Shown here: piece by piece, positions 6,150 through 24,092 of the stretch
Layout of the letters: each line of letters begins with the position of its first letter
Position numbering within the stretch: the stretch's first letter is position 1
DNA from: Verrucomicrobiaceae bacterium
Lineage (GTDB): Bacteria > Verrucomicrobiota > Verrucomicrobiia > Verrucomicrobiales > Verrucomicrobiaceae
Length of the DNA: 64,000 nucleotides
Assembly (NCBI GenBank): GCA_027490195.1
Contig: JAIXYN010000022.1
Span: forward strand, 62,001-126,000
Direction of reading: 5' to 3'
The notes under the pieces: model-generated
Told to the model about the DNA's origin: nothing
The model's input: only the letters and a program-made list of their open reading frames with translations
Databases searched by the model: none
Program-made: the position numbers and the translations under genes

Positions 6150-8315
6150 TTATTGAACGAAAAGGAACTGGGACCCGGTGATGAGCGCGTGGGTGACATC
6201 GGCCACGGCTTTGTCGCCGCGCTCCTTGATGACGCCATCGAGGATGACCTGCTCATTGGCTGTGGGGGCGCGGCTCAGCAGAGCCTGATAGAGGGTGGCG
6301 ATTTTCTGCGCTGGCGAGCCGGCATTGGCGATGGCCTGATTCAATTTGGAAGCCGGGTTGTTGATCACATCAGCAGCGGGCCCATTGAGCAGGGTGAGAG
6401 CCTGCGGCACGGAGGCGTCATCGCTTGCATTCTGGATGAGTTCGCGATCGCTCTGCCCAAAGGTGCGCAGGAAGGTACCGGGGCGTGCGGGGCTGGGCTG
6501 CTCAGAAGCGCGTGAGGTGAGGCCCATGGCATCCTTGCCACTGCCGTTGCGCTTGTACGTTTTCAAGAACTCTCTGCGCTGCTCCTTGGTCATGGATTCA
6601 AGCGTTTTGGGATCAACCTGCGGCTGCTTTTCCTTCTCAGGTTTTTCGGGGCGATAGCCTTGGCGAAGATCATCGGCGCGCTCTTTGCCGAGCAGGGCAA
6701 CGAGGATGTCTTTCTCAGAGGCTTTGCGCAGGCTGCTGGCCTCTTTGGCCAGCGCTTTGCTTGCTGCCGTGGTGTCGATTCCCTTCGCCTTGTCGGCAGC
6801 CAGCTTAATTTTCATCTCATCGATCTTCTTCTGGTTGGCGTCCAGTTTGGATCGGCCTTCCTTGGCAATCTGCACCAAGCCTTCAGCTCCCTTGGATTTG
6901 ACCGTGCCGAGGAACATGGAGAGATCATCGAGATACTGGTGCAGGCGGGCATTTTCGTCATCAACGGTGTCATCGATATTTCCCTTGGAGAGCGTGACAA
7001 AGGAGTCCCAGATCTGCTCGGCGCTCATGCGGCGCAGGATGGGGCCGGTGAAGTGGTAGGTCTCGCCCAGCGGTACTTCCTCCACAGTAGCGGCGCGCTG
7101 GTAGGTGTCGGTGTTGTAAAGCACGCGCAGGAAGGATTTCAGCGAGTATTCTTTCTCGATCATCAACTGGCCGAGGTAGTCCATCAGTGCCGGATTGCTG
7201 GCGACGGTGCTGTCGGTCATTTCATCGACAGGTTCGATCAAGCCGACGCCGAAGGCTTTCTTCCACATGCGATTGGCGATCACGGTGGTGAAGCGCGGAT
7301 TCTCCGGGCTGGTCATCCAATCGGCAAAGGCATTCAGACGGGTTTCGCCGGGCTTGATCGCGGCATCCGCGCCAAACATGGTTTTGGCTTCGACTTTCTC
7401 GCCGGGCTTGGCATCGGGATATTTGTAGTCAGCGGGGAGGCTGGGGAGTTTGCCATCCTGCCACTCGGCGCTGGTGTAGCGCAGTGGTTTCATCACATCC
7501 TGCATGGCGCGTTTGACCTGCTGCATATCCTCGCGGCTGATCTTGGATTCTTCCGCCTTTTTCTCGGCCTGGAGTTTGGCCCGGTAGACTTTCTTCTCCG
7601 CGCTGCTCATGGCCTGGACGGCTTTTTTGTCCAGTTCCATGCCTTTGGTGGCGCTGCTTTTGAAATCCACGCCACGGCTTTTCGTGTCCATGCCGTAGGT
7701 GAACGCGGCCATATGGTAGTAGTCCATCTGAGACCACTTATCGAAGGGGTGGTTGTGACACTGCGCGCAGACGATGCTGGTGCCCAGGAAGACCTGCACG
7801 GTGTAGGCCAGATGATCGAGCTTGTTTTCATCCCGCTGCCAGAAACCGATGCTGCCGCTGTCCCACACACCGCCGTCGGTGGTGAGAAGGTTCTTCACGA
7901 ACTTGTCATAGGGCACGTTTGCTTTGACCTGCTGCTTGAGCCATTCTTCATAGGCTTCTGCGGTGATGCGCCCCTTGACGTTGTCGGTCAGGCGCAGCAC
8001 ATCGGCCCAATAGTTGAACATGTGGCTGGTGTAGCCATCGGAGGCCAGCAGTGTATCGATGAGCTTGGCACGCTTCTGCGGGTCCTTGGAGCTCATGTAG
8101 GCCTGCGCCTCCTCAAGGGTGGGAATGCGCCCGGCGATGTCGAGATAAAGACGGCGCACGAGCACTTCGTCGCTGGCAGGAGGATTCGCCTTGAGGCCAG
8201 CTTTCTCCCAGTCCTTGCTGAGGAGCTGGTCGATCTTCTGGCTTTCCGGCAGTGAGGCGGCTTGCAGCGAGGCAGAGGCAAGCAGGCATGCGAGGAGGAG
8301 GCGGGGGACGTTCAT
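6150..8315 (-). CDS. DUF1549/DUF1553 (planctomycete-type cytochrome) protein
   Basis: 721 residues with a Sec signal peptide (MNVPRLLLACLLASASLQA). The N-terminal half is the DUF1549 (PSCyt2) region: RRLYLDIAGRIPT near residue 55, and a CAQCHNHPFDKW heme-type CxxCH motif with Cys183, Cys186 and His187. The C-terminal half is DUF1553 (PSD1), ending with LTLLNGPAADVI and the LYQALLSRAPTANE repeat. The middle contains a lysine-rich helical linker (residues about 470-560). It is the first gene of a two-gene operon with the DUF1501 gene. A periplasmic electron-transfer or polymer-processing role is often proposed for these families but has not been shown. Confidence 0.93.
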   Translation of the reverse strand: MNVPRLLLACLLASASLQAASLPESQKIDQLLSKDWEKAGLKANPPASDEVLVRRLYLDIAGRIPTLEEAQAYMSSKDPQKRAKLIDTLLASDGYTSHMFNYWADVLRLTDNVKGRITAEAYEEWLKQQVKANVPYDKFVKNLLTTDGGVWDSGSIGFWQRDENKLDHLAYTVQVFLGTSIVCAQCHNHPFDKWSQMDYYHMAAFTYGMDTKSRGVDFKSSATKGMELDKKAVQAMSSAEKKVYRAKLQAEKKAEESKISREDMQQVKRAMQDVMKPLRYTSAEWQDGKLPSLPADYKYPDAKPGEKVEAKTMFGADAAIKPGETRLNAFADWMTSPENPRFTTVIANRMWKKAFGVGLIEPVDEMTDSTVASNPALMDYLGQLMIEKEYSLKSFLRVLYNTDTYQRAATVEEVPLGETYHFTGPILRRMSAEQIWDSFVTLSKGNIDDTVDDENARLHQYLDDLSMFLGTVKSKGAEGLVQIAKEGRSKLDANQKKIDEMKIKLAADKAKGIDTTAASKALAKEASSLRKASEKDILVALLGKERADDLRQGYRPEKPEKEKQPQVDPKTLESMTKEQRREFLKTYKRNGSGKDAMGLTSRASEQPSPARPGTFLRTFGQSDRELIQNASDDASVPQALTLLNGPAADVINNPASKLNQAIANAGSPAQKIATLYQALLSRAPTANEQVILDGVIKERGDKAVADVTHALITGSQFLFVQ

Positions 8316-16009: not shown

Positions 16010-19000
16010 TCAAGGCGGCGGAATGATCCAAACAGCACGATTTGCCTTCGGCTGAGCTTTGATGAAGGTGGCACGACCAGCACGTAGCAGGGTGGCATTG
16101 TTCTGGGAATGCAGGGAGGCATCGCCCATGGAAATCCATACGGGAACAGGCTGACCGGGCATTTGGAAAAGCCAGTAGCCTAGGTAGCCAGAGGCAGCGG
16201 GGGAGGCATCGCCTTTCCAGAGCTGCAATTGATCAGAGCTGGAAAAGGTGGTGCTGGCAACGATGGCGGCAGAGTTCAGTCCGGCATGGGCAGGTGTGGC
16301 ATCGAGCGGCCAGGGATTGGCGAAGAGATTATAGCCCGTTTGGAGCGGACGCGCGAAAGGTGTGGTGCGTACGCTGCCGGTGCTAAGCAGCGGCCCGGGG
16401 GCAGTGCTTGCGATTTGCAGCATCACACCTGTGCCTGGTGGTATGATCGCATCATTCATGCTGGCGAGCGAGGCACCGCTTAAAACCCATTGAGGAGCAG
16501 CGCCGGAGGAATAGAGCCAGTAGGTTCTGTAACCTGCGGGGGCGTAAAACAGGATCTGATCGGCGCTGGTGGCGACGGCGGAACTCTTGAAACGTGCGGG
16601 GTCAAAGACTTCGCCCAATGTGCGATGCGTGCGCACGCTGACACGGGCACCAGTCAAGTCAGCAATGACAGTCGCAGAGAGTGTGGTGTTGGGCGAGTCA
16701 GCGGCAATCAAACACGCGGCAGCAGTGATGCTCTGCAAATCGAGACGATGTCCGGCCTGCGGGCCGCTGATGATTTCGAGGTAGTAACGCTGCGCGGGAT
16801 CCATAGCAGATGCCACGGCCGCCTGCTCGCCGAGCGTGACGCTGGTGGCATTGGCGGCACTGATGCTGCCGGTAAAAAGCGCCTCATGGGTGAGATTGAG
16901 ACCGTAGCTCTGCGTGCCGGAGTGCAGGGTGGTCTGCTGCCAGCCCACGGGTGTGCTGGTGGTGGTACCGCCGCCGCTTTGCGTGACGCGCAAACGAATG
17001 ATGCCACGCTCGAGGCTTTGCCCAGGCAGAGCTTGGAGGTCTGCCCACGTCACGCGCTCCTGGCCATTGCCCTGCGTAGTGATTGCCGGTGTCGCGACGA
17101 GTGGAGTCCAGTTGATCAGATCACCGCTGCTTTCGAGCGTGAACGTGAAAGAACCCTGACCCGGCGGACGCAGCAGGGTAGCATCCACGCGGCTGTTGCT
17201 GCGCGTGACGAGCTGCAATCCCTGGCCGGGCTGAGCGATGCCGCTGGTGAGCGAGGTCCCAAGCGCCGTTTCGAGGAGATCGGAAGCACCATCGCCATCG
17301 GTGTTGGTCGTGGCCAGATTGTTGGAGAGCGCGAGGGTGGTGGGAATGATGGAAGCGAGGGTGATGCTGTTCGGCGAAGCCGCCGGTGCCGCAGGCGCAT
17401 TGACGAGCCACTGGCTTTGCGGGATCACCTCGCGTGTTTGACCGGGGCTTTCCCACAGCAGCCGGGCGGTGACGCCACCAGTGCTTTCGTAGTACTCCAT
17501 GACGACAGGGACGGCCACGCCGGCCTGCAGAGCGATGACGCCGTTGTTCCAGGTGTCGCCGTGATCGTTCCAATCATCGACGACCAACTGGCCATTGACC
17601 CAGAGGCGCACGCCGTCATCGGTGACGGGGATGAGGGTGTAAGTCTGCGTGTAGCGCGGGATGAGATAGCCGTGCCAGCGCACGCTGTAGCCATCCGCAG
17701 GAATTCGCGGGTCGGGACTGCCTGTGCCCCAGGTGTAATTGACCGTGGACTCCATGCGCGTGAAGCTGAACTGCTCGAAGTTTTTGCCGATGTAGTAGTT
17801 TCCCGTGAGGCCGTGGGTGGTAGCGGCAGGTGCATAGTTCGCACTGATGAGATTGGAAGCTGTGCTCGGATTGCCTGCGGCATCCTGCGCCATGCCAGCC
17901 GGGAGTGTGACCGTCACAAATCCAGCAGCCGTGGGCGTGACTGTGGCAGAATACACTGTGCCTGCGGAGGCCAAAGCCGTGACGATGCCGTTGGTGACTG
18001 CAAACTCGGAGGCGAGCAGGCCACTGACATCTTCATTGAATGTGGTGGTGACAACAAAGGGTGCCGTGACACTGCTGGCCGAGGTGGACAGCACCACGGC
18101 TGGCGGTGTGGTGTCGGCAGGGGCGTAGTTCACGCTGAGAAGGTTGGAGGCGGAGTTGCCCAGTTTCGTGCTGTCAGTCGCGGCTTTAGCAGGCACGCTG
18201 ACGGTGACGATGCCTTTGGCCGTGGGATTGATTCTGAAGGTATAACTCGTACCGCTGCCACTGAAGCTGGAAACAACACCGTTGGTGACGACCACATCGC
18301 TAAGCGTGAAGCCTGAGGCTGCGGCATTGAACGTAACCATAACATTGAATGCGCCAGTGACGCTCGTGGTGGCGCTGCTCAGCACAACGGCAAAGGGCAG
18401 CGGTGCCGAGATCGGGGCATCGTCGATGCTGGCCACAAACTCGGCAAGGTAGGACAATTCCGAAGCTGACAACGTCAGCCCCTTGTGCGCAGTAATGGCC
18501 TCTGACAGAGTGGCCGCCGAGCCGTCGTGGAAATAGGGTGCCGTGGCCCAACTGCCACGCAGTGTTGGCACATCTAGGCCGGTGAGCGAAGCCCCAAGGC
18601 GCTTGCCGCTGGAGGGCTTGATGGTGCCGATGTCTGCAAAGACGTTGAGCGCGCTATTGGTGAAACCCGCACCGCTGTGGCAGGAGGCGCAGTTTTGCGC
18701 GCGGAAAATCTGCTGCCCGGCAGCGGCGGTGACGCTGAGTGCCCCGCTGGTGACACGATTCGGACTAATGCCGTTGGTGGTGAGAGATTTCACATACGCG
18801 GCAAGCGCATCGAGATCCGCGCTCACTCCCGCCTTCGCATCACCGAGCGGCTGATTGCGCGTGCCGGTGTTGTACTGCGTGTTCGTCATGAGTCCGGTGC
18901 CGCCGGCCAGGGTGCGTATCTGGCCTTCAAAATCATGCACTTCATCAAAGTTTCCGGTCCAGTGCAGCATGCCGTGAGCAGCATGGCCTTTCAGCGTGAT

Positions 19001-22000
19001 GGTGTTGCGCAGGCCTTCTCCAAAGCCCGTCATATCCCACACGCGGCCATCGTGCCCGGCATCATTGTGGCAGACGGCGCAACTGATGTACTGCTGCAAC
19101 GCCAGGCGTGGGTCCTGCGCATCGTAAAAGAGCTGTTTGCCCTGCAGCACCTGGGCGGTGAGTTTTTCCGTGGTGACGGCACTGAGCGTGGCTGTGGTGA
19201 CAGGTGCGATGTTGCCGCCCTGAGTGATGCCACGCACGTCATGCACCGTGATGCTGCGGTCCATGAAGTTCTGCACATACAGCGTGTTGCCATCTGGCGA
19301 GGTGACGACGCCCTGCGGCGCACGGCCTACCGGAAAGCGGGTGATTTCCTGATGTGACCACGCATCCAGAATGGCGATCTCGCGGCTGGCTTCGAGCGCG
19401 GTGAAAACATAGATGCCATACGGATCATATGCTGCGGCGCTGGGCATGCCCGCGTTGTCAATGTCCACACGTGAAGGCAGGCTCTCCGCCTGGGTTATGA
19501 GGTCAATGCGCGAGACGATGGCGCGCACGCTGTTTTCATGGTTCAAAGGCTGACCATCGCGCAGCACGCCGCGCTGGATGTTGTCCTGCTTCGATGGCAC
19601 CCAGGCCGAGAGACCGTCGGGTGAGATGACGGCGGCACCGAGGTAGTTAGGCAGGCCGCGCGCGGACGTTGAAGTATCCGCAGCGGTGCTGGGATTGAGC
19701 AGAATGGTGCGCTGCACCGTCAGCGACGCCATGCCAATGACGACCACTTGGCCACCAGCACCCGTGAGCACCGGCGTGGCGGTGTTTTCACCGGGCACGC
19801 GGGGGGTGATGAAACGTGAGGCATACACGCGGGCGCTGTCCGCTGAGATGGAGAGATGCCGCACGGGACCACCGACATTGATCGAGGCGAGTTGCGCTCC
19901 GGTGCTGGGGTTCAATTTCAGCACGCGTCCAGTTCCTTCCAGCGTCACCCATGCCGCTGTGCGCGCCGGATCGAAGACAATGCCAAAGGGGCGTGAGCCA
20001 GACGCGACCCTCACTGTGGTGGCAACATTACGCGTGCGGGTGTTGATGATGCTGATGGTTCCCGACTCGACATTCGTCACCCATAGCCTGCCGTCCGGCG
20101 CCAAAGCCAGACTGCGCGGCGAGGTTCCAACGGGAATCTCAGCATAGCGCGCACGCGTCACCACATCAAAAGCAGTGACGCTGTTGTTGTCCGGATTCAC
20201 GCACCAGACACGGTCATTGCCAGTGGCAGATCGCTCATAGACGATGCTGCTGGAAGCTGCGGGCTTGAGCGCCGTCAGCGCGGCATGCACCGCCTGATAG
20301 AACGTGCTGGTGACCGTGATACCGGTGTCGTCAGTGGCGGTGAGCGTCACCAGATAGCGACCTGGACCGGCGTAAGTGTGCGTGATGCTTGGGGTCGTGA
20401 GCCATGCGGTCTCAGGCGTGCCATCGCCAAAATTCCATTTGTAGCGCGGATTGATGCCATTTGCGGATTGAGCGGTTAAGGTGAGCGCGCTGCCGGTGGC
20501 CTTCGGTGCGGCGGCCAGTGGCTGCAGCGTCAGCCCTGCGGTGACGTTCCAGGTGAAGGCGGCGGTGGCAGGTGTGCTGATGCCATCGCTGGCCGTAACG
20601 GTGACATTGAAGGTGCCTGCCACCGTCACAGAACCGGAGATGACTCCTGAGCCCGGCGAGATCGAAAGCCCCGTGGGCAATCCCGTGGCACTGAAAGTGA
20701 GCGGATTGTTTTCAGGATCGTTCGCCAAAACCGGCAGCGAGACCACTGCCCCGATGAGCGAGGCTTGAACTCCTGGGCTGGTGATCTGCGGCGGTTGATT
20801 CAGCACAGTGCTGGTGGCGTGGCGCAGATCGCGAAGCGCGAGGATGTCTGGCAGGGACAGCGGTGCCTGATGCAGCGTGACTTCATCCACCGCACCCGCG
20901 AAGAAGGCCGTGCCGGGGCTGTCGGCAGCGCCGACGATGAAAGGCTTGGAAGCGTTTGGCACGCAGGTGCCGGTGTCTTCGTTGACGAGAATGCCGTTGA
21001 TGTACAATCGGCGTACGCCGGTCAGGGTCGCGCCGCTGGCACTCGTCGTGCGGAAGGTGGCCGCCACATGCGTCCACTGCCCCACGGTAACGGCGCTGCC
21101 TTTCAATCCCGAAGTGTCTGCCCCAGTGCGCAATTGCCAGAAGCCATCCGCGGTCACCCACAAGCCGTAGCCTTTTTTGGTGGCGGTCGATTCATCACGC
21201 GAGGCAAGAATGCACCGCGCCGTGCCCAGCGCCGCATCACTGCGCACCCATGCGGCGATGGTGAAATCATTGGGATTCAGCGATGCGCTGTACGGCATGA
21301 CGACGCTTTGCGTGGTGCCATTGAACAACGCGCTGCTGCCCGTGCCGGGATTGCCACTGAGCGCAGGATTGATGCTCGTCGTATTCGCTCCGCCGCTCGC
21401 GCTGCCGTTGAGGGCAAACAAACCTGCGGCGGTGGATTTTACTTCGCCTGCGGTGCCGTTCCAGCTCGCTTCATCGAAGTTCCAAGTGACTACCGGATTC
21501 TCGATGGGCAGGTAAGGCGAGAGGTAAGTGCCCGCGATGATCGACACCGCTGCATCTCCCGGTTTCTTCCAGCCGACGGAGAGGTGATCGTCCCCCGAAC
21601 CATCCTTCATCAAGGCTTCGATGTAATAGCGCTTGCCGGCCTGCAGGGTGATCAAGGCGGAGGTCTGCTGCGGATACCACGTCCAGGTTTGAGGTGGTGT
21701 GTAGCCGGGCTGGCTGGAGATCTCCACGGCGTTGGCGGGATTTGCATCGGTGCTCAGTTTCAGGCTCGATTCATCATCGCTGGAGATGAAGAACTGATAC
21801 TGCCCGGTGACTGGCACGTAGAGAAAGCCGCGCAGTCGCTGGCCGGTGCTGTCGTCCCAATTTTGAGGCGATTCAAAGGACGGCTGCAGATCGCGCCCAT
21901 TCGGATTCGCTGGGAAGACGGTGTTGCTGGTCAGGCTGGCCACCGTGACGCCGCTGATGTTCGTCCAGTACTCGCGCATGATCTGGCCGCTGCCGAGATT

Positions 22001-23902
22001 GGGCAGCAGCACGATCCAGTTGAATGAAACGGAGGTCACCTGCCCTGCCGCACTTACAAGAAGCGTGCTGCGGTAGGTTCCCGGTGTGGCGGTCACGGTA
22101 CCGGAGATCAAGCCGGTCGTGGCATTGATGGCGAGTCCGGTGGGCAATCCACTCGCGGTATAGCTCAGCGTGCCGCCCGAAGCGCTGGCGCTGATGGGCA
22201 GCGAGACCACGCTGTTTTGCGTCACGCTCTGCTGCCCCGGATTCGTTACCACCGGCAGTGTGGAATTCGTGACCTGAATGATGCGTGACACGGACCACAC
22301 GCCGTTCGCATCCACGGCAAACATCATCCAGTAGCCCGGAGTGAGCACATTGATGCTCGGTGGTGCTGTGACCGCATACACGCCTGATGAGGGGTTCGTG
22401 TGCGTGAAGCGCACATGCCGCAGACCGGTGTCCACCGAATGCGTTTGCGCAGACATGCTGATGGCGCTGAAGTACTGCACGCCGTTGCTGGCGTTCACGG
22501 TGAAGATGGACGCGGGGCCGATGCGATCTGGGGCTGCCGTGATCACAGGGCGCACAGCCGGTGTGCCGTCTGCATTGAATAACTGCGGCGGTGTGAAGAC
22601 CTGCGCATCCTGATGGTCGGTGAGAGCATCGCCAGACAATCCACCGCCGCCGGACCAAACGCGGCCATCGGGCAGCAGCATCGCCAGTGAGTGGTAATTG
22701 CGCGGCACGGACATGTCCGCCACCGCACGCCATTGGCCCGTGGTGGGGTTCCAAATTTCCGGCGTGAACACCGTGCCCAGATCGCTGAAGAACTGCCCCG
22801 AGGTATTGCCACCCACGATCATCACCTCGCCGTTTGGCAGCATGACCGAGTTTGAAAAGGAGCGCGGATTCGCCATCGGCGCGGTTGGGGCCACCACGGG
22901 TGTGGCGCCATTGAGATCCACGGTGAAGGCCTTGTTCACCACCGTGCCATCATCAATGGCCGTCAATCCACCTGCCACGACCACTTTGCCCGGCGCATAC
23001 ATCGCCCATGAGCCTTGCTTGGGATAATGCGTCCCAGGAATGCTGGCCCCTGCTGAAGTCATTGCCCCAGTGCCTGTGGCGGTGATCCAGTCCAGCGCCT
23101 GATGCGGACCAAAGTGCGCCACGCGCCCATCCGGTGCCACGAGGAAGAAGGGATGCCAGTTGGTTTCAATCGCATTGGCGATGGGCGGATTTGCCACCGC
23201 TTGCCAGTTGATGCCACTCATGCGCCGCCAGCCGGAACTGGCATTCCATTGCTCGATGGTGCCGTTGCCATTCGCGCCGCCATTGCCCCCTGCGGTCAGC
23301 ACCTCTCCATTCGGCAGGGCGATGCTCGTATTGTACCAGCGGCCATCCGCCATCGTCTGCGCCGGCACCCATTCATTCGTGCGCCAGTCAAACAAGCTGG
23401 CCAGCGCCGTCCTGCCATTGATGCCGTTGCCGCCGTTCACCAGCAGGCGGCCATCCTGCAAAAAAGAAAGCCCGCCGCAAAACATGTCATGACGGCCGTT
23501 GTTGATCTCGGTAAAGAGACCTGTGGCAGGATCCCACACGGCTGCGTAGGTAAACTGCGGACCGTCTGGAAACGTCGTGCGCTGATTCGAGGCAAACGTG
23601 AGCAACCTGCCGTCTGGCAGCATGGCAGCCGATGTAGGAATGTGCGGCGTCCACGGGATGACGGCACTCCAGCTACCCTTCGTGACAAATTCCGCTGGTG
23701 AAACAGCGCCGATGCTCATCACCACGGCCTCTGCCGTAGGCGCAAGCCTTGCTGCCTCCGCCATTAAGGCATCCGTTTCGGCATGGCTGGCGACATCTGC
23801 CTTCACATATCCCGTCAGAAGAAAAACCATGAGGAACACACTCCTGTAACCGGGCGCAGAACGCCGCAGCCCTCTTTGAAACCTTGCGTAGATGCGATTC
23901 AT
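16010..23902 (-). CDS. Giant secreted copper-radical oxidase / beta-propeller / di-heme cytochrome c fusion
   Basis: 2,630 residues from the ATG at 23902; a TTG ten codons upstream is less likely. A signal peptide ends near residue 35. Domains by position: galactose/glyoxal-oxidase-like (about 40-546), a putative Ig repeat (550-630), PA14 (635-785), a LamG/concanavalin-like domain (803-1030), a second Ig repeat, PKD (1146-1208), a YVTN/NHL-type propeller (1217-1568), a di-heme cytochrome c peroxidase-like part (1574-1829) with CAVCH at 1608-1612 and CASCH at 1738-1742, two Ig-like repeats (1834-2024), a second PA14 (2029-2168), and a C-terminus resembling the verrucomicrobial TIGR02597 family. 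The five copper-radical residues appear intact: Cys142, Tyr190, Tyr403, His404 and His488. It is probably extracellular or surface-anchored. The substrate is unknown; an alcohol or aldehyde is expected for the oxidase. Confidence 0.9.
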   Translation of the reverse strand: MNRIYARFQRGLRRSAPGYRSVFLMVFLLTGYVKADVASHAETDALMAEAARLAPTAEAVVMSIGAVSPAEFVTKGSWSAVIPWTPHIPTSAAMLPDGRLLTFASNQRTTFPDGPQFTYAAVWDPATGLFTEINNGRHDMFCGGLSFLQDGRLLVNGGNGINGRTALASLFDWRTNEWVPAQTMADGRWYNTSIALPNGEVLTAGGNGGANGNGTIEQWNASSGWRRMSGINWQAVANPPIANAIETNWHPFFLVAPDGRVAHFGPHQALDWITATGTGAMTSAGASIPGTHYPKQGSWAMYAPGKVVVAGGLTAIDDGTVVNKAFTVDLNGATPVVAPTAPMANPRSFSNSVMLPNGEVMIVGGNTSGQFFSDLGTVFTPEIWNPTTGQWRAVADMSVPRNYHSLAMLLPDGRVWSGGGGLSGDALTDHQDAQVFTPPQLFNADGTPAVRPVITAAPDRIGPASIFTVNASNGVQYFSAISMSAQTHSVDTGLRHVRFTHTNPSSGVYAVTAPPSINVLTPGYWMMFAVDANGVWSVSRIIQVTNSTLPVVTNPGQQSVTQNSVVSLPISASASGGTLSYTASGLPTGLAINATTGLISGTVTATPGTYRSTLLVSAAGQVTSVSFNWIVLLPNLGSGQIMREYWTNISGVTVASLTSNTVFPANPNGRDLQPSFESPQNWDDSTGQRLRGFLYVPVTGQYQFFISSDDESSLKLSTDANPANAVEISSQPGYTPPQTWTWYPQQTSALITLQAGKRYYIEALMKDGSGDDHLSVGWKKPGDAAVSIIAGTYLSPYLPIENPVVTWNFDEASWNGTAGEVKSTAAGLFALNGSASGGANTTSINPALSGNPGTGSSALFNGTTQSVVMPYSASLNPNDFTIAAWVRSDAALGTARCILASRDESTATKKGYGLWVTADGFWQLRTGADTSGLKGSAVTVGQWTHVAATFRTTSASGATLTGVRRLYINGILVNEDTGTCVPNASKPFIVGAADSPGTAFFAGAVDEVTLHQAPLSLPDILALRDLRHATSTVLNQPPQITSPGVQASLIGAVVSLPVLANDPENNPLTFSATGLPTGLSISPGSGVISGSVTVAGTFNVTVTASDGISTPATAAFTWNVTAGLTLQPLAAAPKATGSALTLTAQSANGINPRYKWNFGDGTPETAWLTTPSITHTYAGPGRYLVTLTATDDTGITVTSTFYQAVHAALTALKPAASSSIVYERSATGNDRVWCVNPDNNSVTAFDVVTRARYAEIPVGTSPRSLALAPDGRLWVTNVESGTISIINTRTRNVATTVRVASGSRPFGIVFDPARTAAWVTLEGTGRVLKLNPSTGAQLASINVGGPVRHLSISADSARVYASRFITPRVPGENTATPVLTGAGGQVVVIGMASLTVQRTILLNPSTAADTSTSARGLPNYLGAAVISPDGLSAWVPSKQDNIQRGVLRDGQPLNHENSVRAIVSRIDLITQAESLPSRVDIDNAGMPSAAAYDPYGIYVFTALEASREIAILDAWSHQEITRFPVGRAPQGVVTSPDGNTLYVQNFMDRSITVHDVRGITQGGNIAPVTTATLSAVTTEKLTAQVLQGKQLFYDAQDPRLALQQYISCAVCHNDAGHDGRVWDMTGFGEGLRNTITLKGHAAHGMLHWTGNFDEVHDFEGQIRTLAGGTGLMTNTQYNTGTRNQPLGDAKAGVSADLDALAAYVKSLTTNGISPNRVTSGALSVTAAAGQQIFRAQNCASCHSGAGFTNSALNVFADIGTIKPSSGKRLGASLTGLDVPTLRGSWATAPYFHDGSAATLSEAITAHKGLTLSASELSYLAEFVASIDDAPISAPLPFAVVLSSATTSVTGAFNVMVTFNAAASGFTLSDVVVTNGVVSSFSGSGTSYTFRINPTAKGIVTVSVPAKAATDSTKLGNSASNLLSVNYAPADTTPPAVVLSTSASSVTAPFVVTTTFNEDVSGLLASEFAVTNGIVTALASAGTVYSATVTPTAAGFVTVTLPAGMAQDAAGNPSTASNLISANYAPAATTHGLTGNYYIGKNFEQFSFTRMESTVNYTWGTGSPDPRIPADGYSVRWHGYLIPRYTQTYTLIPVTDDGVRLWVNGQLVVDDWNDHGDTWNNGVIALQAGVAVPVVMEYYESTGGVTARLLWESPGQTREVIPQSQWLVNAPAAPAASPNSITLASIIPTTLALSNNLATTNTDGDGASDLLETALGTSLTSGIAQPGQGLQLVTRSNSRVDATLLRPPGQGSFTFTLESSGDLINWTPLVATPAITTQGNGQERVTWADLQALPGQSLERGIIRLRVTQSGGGTTTSTPVGWQQTTLHSGTQSYGLNLTHEALFTGSISAANATSVTLGEQAAVASAMDPAQRYYLEIISGPQAGHRLDLQSITAAACLIAADSPNTTLSATVIADLTGARVSVRTHRTLGEVFDPARFKSSAVATSADQILFYAPAGYRTYWLYSSGAAPQWVLSGASLASMNDAIIPPGTGVMLQIASTAPGPLLSTGSVRTTPFARPLQTGYNLFANPWPLDATPAHAGLNSAAIVASTTFSSSDQLQLWKGDASPAASGYLGYWLFQMPGQPVPVWISMGDASLHSQNNATLLRAGRATFIKAQPKANRAVWIIPPP

Positions 23903-24092
23903 ATTTGAGTGGATTTTCAAAGATGGGAACAAGCGACCATCCGGGCGCTCCTCAATTCAGTTGATTGTAAGAGAGCTTCTGTTCTCCGAACCATTGGCAG
24001 GAGTTGATAGTTCGCCCATCCTCGCTGCGAGCCCTTGCACTCACCCCGGCATTGTCTATTCTCGCCTCCCCTGTTCTTTCCCTCTTTTCGCC

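Follow-up and report, generated by a model that had tools for sequence, protein, structure and literature searches.

A conserved fusion of a copper-radical oxidase with a hydrazine synthase-like propeller and di-heme module in Verrucomicrobiota

We identified, in a Verrucomicrobiaceae genome, a single protein that joins an intact copper-radical oxidase to a propeller and di-heme module resembling the beta and gamma subunits of hydrazine synthase (HZS). The fusion is genuine and conserved, and on the evidence of the open literature it is undescribed: we found no published description of an oxidase–di-heme fusion in the open-access literature, subscription journals being mostly outside the scope of that search, and its constituent parts all belong to known families. 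The conservation of the fusion across relatives makes a functional link between its two halves likely. The explanation we prefer, tentatively and at somewhat less than an even chance, is that the oxidase carries its own redox partner.

Results

The window analysed here is a stretch of 64,000 nucleotides from contig JAIXYN010000022.1. On its minus strand, positions 16010–23932 form a single open frame of 2640 codons with a TTG start, within which an ATG at 23902 would give a protein of 2630 amino acids. We number residues from the TTG; the numbering of an initial annotation, made from the letters of the sequence, is lower by 10. That annotation had read the gene as one polypeptide combining a copper-radical oxidase with a di-heme cytochrome, and both the open frame and the Pfam and NCBIfam domain searches bear this out. 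The N-terminal Pfam matches are Glyoxal_oxid_N, Kelch and GO-like_E_set; after the YVTN propeller, CCP_MauG, Cytochrom_C and RoxA-like_Cyt-c match, followed by Big_12 and PA14. The two heme motifs, first placed at 1608–1612 and 1738–1742, lie at 1618–1622 and 1748–1752 in our numbering, and about 1,030 residues of linker domains and propeller separate the oxidase from the hemes. In the L070 protein, a relative with a short linker, the oxidase-to-di-heme stretch takes up about 1,250 residues. The features are as follows.

16010..23902, minus strand: whole fusion gene (open-frame reading; frame open to the TTG at 23932)
23798..23902, minus strand: predicted Sec signal peptide with hydrophobic VFLMVFLLTGYVKA (from reading the sequence)
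22265..23680, minus strand: copper-radical oxidase, galactose-oxidase fold with C-terminal E-set, residues 85–556 (Pfam, PDB search, model)
22010..22255, minus strand: He_PIG Ig-like domain (Pfam)
21524..21991, minus strand: PA14/GLEYA region, ends approximate (Pfam)
20843..21322, minus strand: LamG domain, Laminin_G_3 (Pfam)
20303..20509, minus strand: PKD domain (Pfam)
19163..20287, minus strand: YVTN-type propeller of seven blades, top PDB match hydrazine synthase beta (NCBIfam, model, fold search)
18407..19162, minus strand: di-heme cytochrome of the CCP/MauG superfamily, hydrazine synthase gamma-like (Pfam, NCBIfam, profile search)
19067..19081, minus strand: heme 1 motif CAVCH, residues 1618–1622 (sequence, alignment)
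18959..18961, minus strand: Trp1658, at the position of the conserved inter-heme Trp in bacterial cytochrome c peroxidases (alignment)
18677..18691, minus strand: heme 2 motif CASCH, residues 1748–1752 (sequence, alignment)
18485..18487, minus strand: His1816, predicted to ligate heme 2 axially, where peroxidases have Met and MauG has Tyr (alignment)
17852..18115, minus strand: Big_12 Ig-like domain, with a second stretch before it (Pfam)
17414..17815, minus strand: second PA14 domain (Pfam)

The last 460 residues (16013–17395, minus strand) have no Pfam match and are possibly a surface-anchoring region. Elsewhere in the window, a gene at 6150–8315 (minus strand) encodes PSCyt2 and PSD1 domains.

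The five copper-radical residues, Cys152, Tyr200, Tyr413, His414 and His498, are invariant in the aligned oxidase domains (43/43) and kept in 20 further relatives that are more distant or unfused. They align with those of the galactose oxidase of Pseudoarthrobacter siccitolerans (9g8h, the top PDB sequence match of the domain, E 4e-96) and of a Colletotrichum copper oxidase, and with those of 6ryv. The initial annotation was therefore right to call the active site intact (Cys142, Tyr190, Tyr403, His404 and His488 in its numbering), and we rejected a degenerate oxidase because the catalytic residues are invariant. The structural model (pLDDT 87.8, pTM 0.90) has a kelch propeller and an E-set fold, and in a fold search it matched 9g43 with Z 54.5 and 1.9 Å over 472 residues, fungal galactose oxidase with Z about 51 and fungal glyoxal oxidase with Z 40.4; judged from this model, the closest characterised enzymes by fold are galactose oxidases, ahead of fungal glyoxal oxidase. 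The domain thus shares both its fold and its five copper-radical residues with AA5 oxidases (9g8h/9g43, 1gof, 6ryv, GlxA), and a thioether cross-link, bound copper and activity are predicted. It differs from them in having no aligned counterpart of the galactose oxidase Trp that we take to be number 290, whose position is an alignment gap, in a Trp before the Tyr predicted to be cross-linked, which is also invariant in 43 of 43 relatives and in the 20 further ones, and in belonging to a multidomain, heme-bearing chain of 2,600 residues.

The C-terminal module resembles hydrazine synthase beta-gamma (5c2v) in its order, a seven-bladed propeller and then a di-heme unit of CCP/MauG fold. The best structural match of the propeller is the HZS beta subunit (Z 38.2, 24% identity), and a profile search with propeller and di-heme domain together retrieved an archaeal YVTN surface-layer protein (3.8e-42), HZS beta (1.8e-21), HZS gamma (9.9e-20) and the CcpA structure 3o5c (4.5e-19), which we take to be from Shewanella. 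The NCBIfam hydrazine synthase beta-gamma model matches both parts at 64 bits against a cut-off of 1250, and the window protein further differs from hydrazine synthase in its N-terminal oxidase. Within the di-heme domain, Pfam CCP_MauG and Cytochrom_C score above cut-off and the RoxA-like match is short. The di-heme part of the propeller–di-heme model has low confidence; a fold search with that model gave propellers and no cytochrome among the matches listed and is uninformative on the cytochrome part.

Both CxxCH motifs, Trp1632, His1657, Trp1658, Glu1669, His1802 and His1816 are invariant in all 44 aligned sequences. The segment TLSEAITAH, ending in His1816, aligns without gaps to TLEEAVNTM of 3o5c, with His where Met stands, and this Met is presumably the axial ligand of the C-terminal heme of the peroxidase. 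A profile alignment to MbnH, unlike the gapless alignment to 3o5c, puts His1816 elsewhere; the corresponding stretch in the MbnH of the same genome is TLEEVVEHY. By the gapless alignment, all 44 sequences carry His1816 where a peroxidase has its axial Met, and where MauG has its axial Tyr the window type likewise has His, the acidobacterial type described below having Tyr. The NPxEM motif is absent and its catalytic Glu unaligned; in the profile alignment the invariant Glu1669 lies one residue away at most. Replacement of the axial Met by an invariant His suggests a bis-His electron-transfer heme, with His expected as the distal ligand of heme 2 as in hydrazine synthase, so that peroxidase activity should not be assumed; a heme 2 of this predicted kind would favour electron transfer over peroxidase function. 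HZS gammaII is bis-His, as is the C-terminal heme of RoxA, which is without peroxidase activity (PMC12607021, PMC6797691). The initial description of this part as cytochrome c peroxidase/MauG-like accordingly needs qualification: superfamily, inter-heme Trp and the two CxxCH motifs are those of bacterial di-heme cytochrome c peroxidase, MauG and MbnH, the axial Met or Tyr has given way to His, and HZS gamma matches equally.

In the GTDB family of the window genome, 37 of 68 genomes encode the oxidase E-set domain, one of them in a stand-alone oxidase of 539 amino acids (G061) and the others in long frames or frames cut by contig ends. A sample of the phylum had the domain in 8 of 388 genomes, three of them new ones with both halves in one frame. 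Cultured strains of Brevifollis, Roseibacillus and Haloferula carry the fusion, which extends beyond the family to other Verrucomicrobiota, one gammaproteobacterial genome and one Acidobacteriota genome; named relatives include Brevifollis gellanilyticus, Roseibacillus persicicus, Haloferula luteola and Prosthecobacter, and further ones come from MAGs of Opitutaceae and Spartobacteria, one MAG of Cocleimonas and the Acidobacteriota genome L199. In the kind of survey of other genomes that the initial annotation had proposed, paired CxxCH motifs about 125–130 residues apart behind an intact oxidase recurred in about 45 long frames, which excludes a chance joining. An assembly artefact or frameshift merging two genes was also considered and rejected, the same fusion being present in dozens of assemblies that include named strains. 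No near-identical plasmid copies were found by megablast.

All propeller–di-heme fusions form one clade of the oxidase tree (53 rows, support 100/98), and the propeller–di-heme tree, from a quick tree search, is broadly congruent with it. Both halves share one frame in every clade member on a long enough contig except L134 (8839–15702, plus strand), where an in-frame TGA, a sequencing error or a true split, cuts the oxidase from the propeller–di-heme part. In another fusion frame (L040, 2047–9003, minus strand) an extra CxxCH stands at open-frame position 34, possibly upstream of the true start. Beside the fusion clade (grouping support 93/70) stand gammaproteobacterial oxidases, at least one of them unfused, and five acidobacterial oxidases, four of which are in frame with a different di-heme domain. 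This acidobacterial domain reaches 41–54 bits with a model of the window-type di-heme domain, against 355–417 for two window-type members on which the model had not been trained; with an MbnH model it scores higher, at 73–89 bits. In the acidobacterium L200, a di-heme gene adjoins a stand-alone oxidase. The oxidase tree and the domain scores suggest that oxidase and di-heme were joined on more than one occasion, in at least two separate and probably independent pairings. The window genome itself has a second fusion copy (L032 5285–14215, minus strand; G000:C100), with a legume lectin in place of PA14 and LamG, and a third propeller–di-heme protein of 2406 amino acids (L084 4315–11535, minus strand; G000:C71) with a non-oxidase N-terminus, so the propeller–di-heme module does not require an oxidase partner.

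Directly upstream of the fusion, at 53 loci (some being one genome from two collections), lies a gene encoding a protein of about 600 amino acids with MbnP and MbnH domains. It typically ends 69–210 bases before the oxidase homology begins, which leaves space for little beyond a signal peptide. Pfam MbnP and CCP_MauG score above cut-off in this protein and the NCBIfam cut-offs are missed; the WxW motif that gives the NCBIfam MbnP family its name is present in 49 of 51 MbnP parts. Outside the clade of the window copy this arrangement is found in most relatives, and its presence in Opitutaceae, Roseibacillus and Haloferula indicates that the linkage is probably ancestral in Verrucomicrobiota. 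There is no MbnP–MbnH gene beside the window fusion gene, whose neighbours are a divergent topoisomerase IV/gyrase A-type gene upstream and a convergent TPR gene downstream, nor beside the fusions of the rest of its clade or of the L032 clade; the absences group in the tree. The window genome has one MbnP–MbnH gene, unlinked (G000:C2), and no remnant of a lost fusion was seen beside it. Across the family, MbnP is found in 35 of 36 genomes with the fusion and in 14 of 32 without it, counts that ignore kinship.

Discussion

At rest, copper-radical oxidases are inactive, with copper as Cu(II), and the removal of one electron activates them; the Colletotrichum oxidase is activated by a peroxidase encoded alongside it, and activity on wax alcohols was observed only with the two enzymes together (PMC9770985). 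A built-in di-heme partner would be the simplest bacterial analogue of this tandem. In both systems a copper-radical oxidase is genetically tied to a heme protein, the fungal one by separate genes and with a class II peroxidase, the window protein in one polypeptide and with c-type hemes. We propose that the oxidase, secreted or periplasmic and associated with carbohydrate, would act at a copper–tyrosyl-radical site on an alcohol or aldehyde group, probably of a polysaccharide bound through PA14 and LamG, and that the di-heme unit would exchange electrons with it. Electrons could flow in either direction: the di-heme unit may oxidise the resting Cu(II)-Tyr by one electron to the active radical, or it may pass electrons on to a soluble cytochrome. 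MbnP–MbnH, co-encoded in most relatives and present as an unlinked copy in the window genome, may handle the copper.

We favour this relay or activation by the di-heme unit because the fusions form one clade with broadly congruent trees, because active site and heme motifs are invariant, and because separate acidobacterial pairings, the axial His, peroxidase activation in the fungal tandem and the upstream MbnP–MbnH gene point the same way. Against it stand the roughly 1,030 residues between oxidase and hemes, whose contact appears in no model, the low confidence of the modelled di-heme part with its predicted heme ligands, and the module carried on a non-oxidase N-terminus in L084. The bis-His heme of HZS has a low potential of about −310 to −360 mV (PMC12607021), and a heme of this kind would serve poorly as the oxidant in forming a tyrosyl radical; electron removal would suit it better. 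A bolder version, in which a covalent hydrazine synthase-like relay defines a new oxidase class by switching the radical on or making the enzyme a cytochrome-linked dehydrogenase, with MbnP–MbnH supplying copper, we consider somewhat unlikely.

The initial annotation had offered two joint functions, self-contained peroxide handling or oxidation linked to an electron chain, and the latter, extended to activation, fits better. Removal or use of peroxide would have the oxidase yield H2O2 and the di-heme part consume it, working like a cytochrome c peroxidase or like MauG. MbnH and MauG enzymes do use peroxide, the CCP_MauG and Cytochrom_C matches and the conserved inter-heme Trp agree with such a role, and the acidobacterial fusion has a more MbnH-like di-heme domain; the axial His and unaligned NPxEM Glu of the window type leave self-contained peroxide handling unsupported, and RoxA and HZS gamma, with their bis-His second heme, are non-peroxidases. 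We therefore regard this explanation as rather improbable. It is also unlikely, if slightly less so, that oxidase and cytochrome work independently as passengers of a large secreted targeting scaffold. Accessory domains are indeed freely shuffled, as in the paralogue with legume lectin for PA14 and LamG, and the propeller–di-heme module is found without oxidase too. However, the two halves stay joined clade-wide while the linker domains vary, and a related acidobacterial oxidase is fused to a second, different di-heme domain.

We give still less credence to an N-terminal heme that is itself catalytic beside the oxidase, working either as an oxygenase in the manner of RoxA or on NO like HZS gammaI, and that receives electrons from the bis-His heme. 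The RoxA-like_Cyt-c match, the beta-gamma model match at 64 bits, far below cut-off, and HZS beta as best fold match would accord with it. Fused beta-gamma-like homologues are reported to be common in environmental bacteria, some with an inter-heme Trp; against this explanation, those published are without residues required for HZS function (PMC12758564).

Little is known of how copper-radical oxidases are activated, loaded and controlled in vivo, the fungal tandem peroxidase being the clearest case. With oxidase and hemes on a single conserved chain, and often with a predicted copper-binding protein and its MauG-like enzyme encoded before it, these questions become testable within one operon and in strains available in culture. 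The fusion further points to a use for the hydrazine synthase beta-gamma-like module, which is widespread, and offers a candidate biological context for MbnP–MbnH outside methanotrophs.

Copper binding by kynurenine occurs in MbnP with MbnH. The kynurenine formed from Trp in CorA and MopE, whose genes are each transcribed together with that of a di-heme protein, binds copper (PMC3912023). The upstream gene of the relatives, encoding MbnP and MbnH domains, resembles the MbnP/MbnH, CorA/CorB and MopE/SACCP pairs; it differs from them in that a single chain carries both domains, in scores under the NCBIfam cut-offs and in its place before an oxidase gene. Its role may exceed copper loading of the fused oxidase, since at two loci (L093 7247–11571, minus strand; L098 4933–9339, plus strand) a glucose/sorbosone-dehydrogenase-like gene, in one case with a CBM96 match, comes right after the MbnP–MbnH gene. 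A frame of 849 amino acids is placed likewise in L102. In an acidobacterium (L207 7561–9828, minus strand), a MauG-like protein carries an additional single-heme domain as well as a copper-binding CusF domain, with an MbnP gene nearby.
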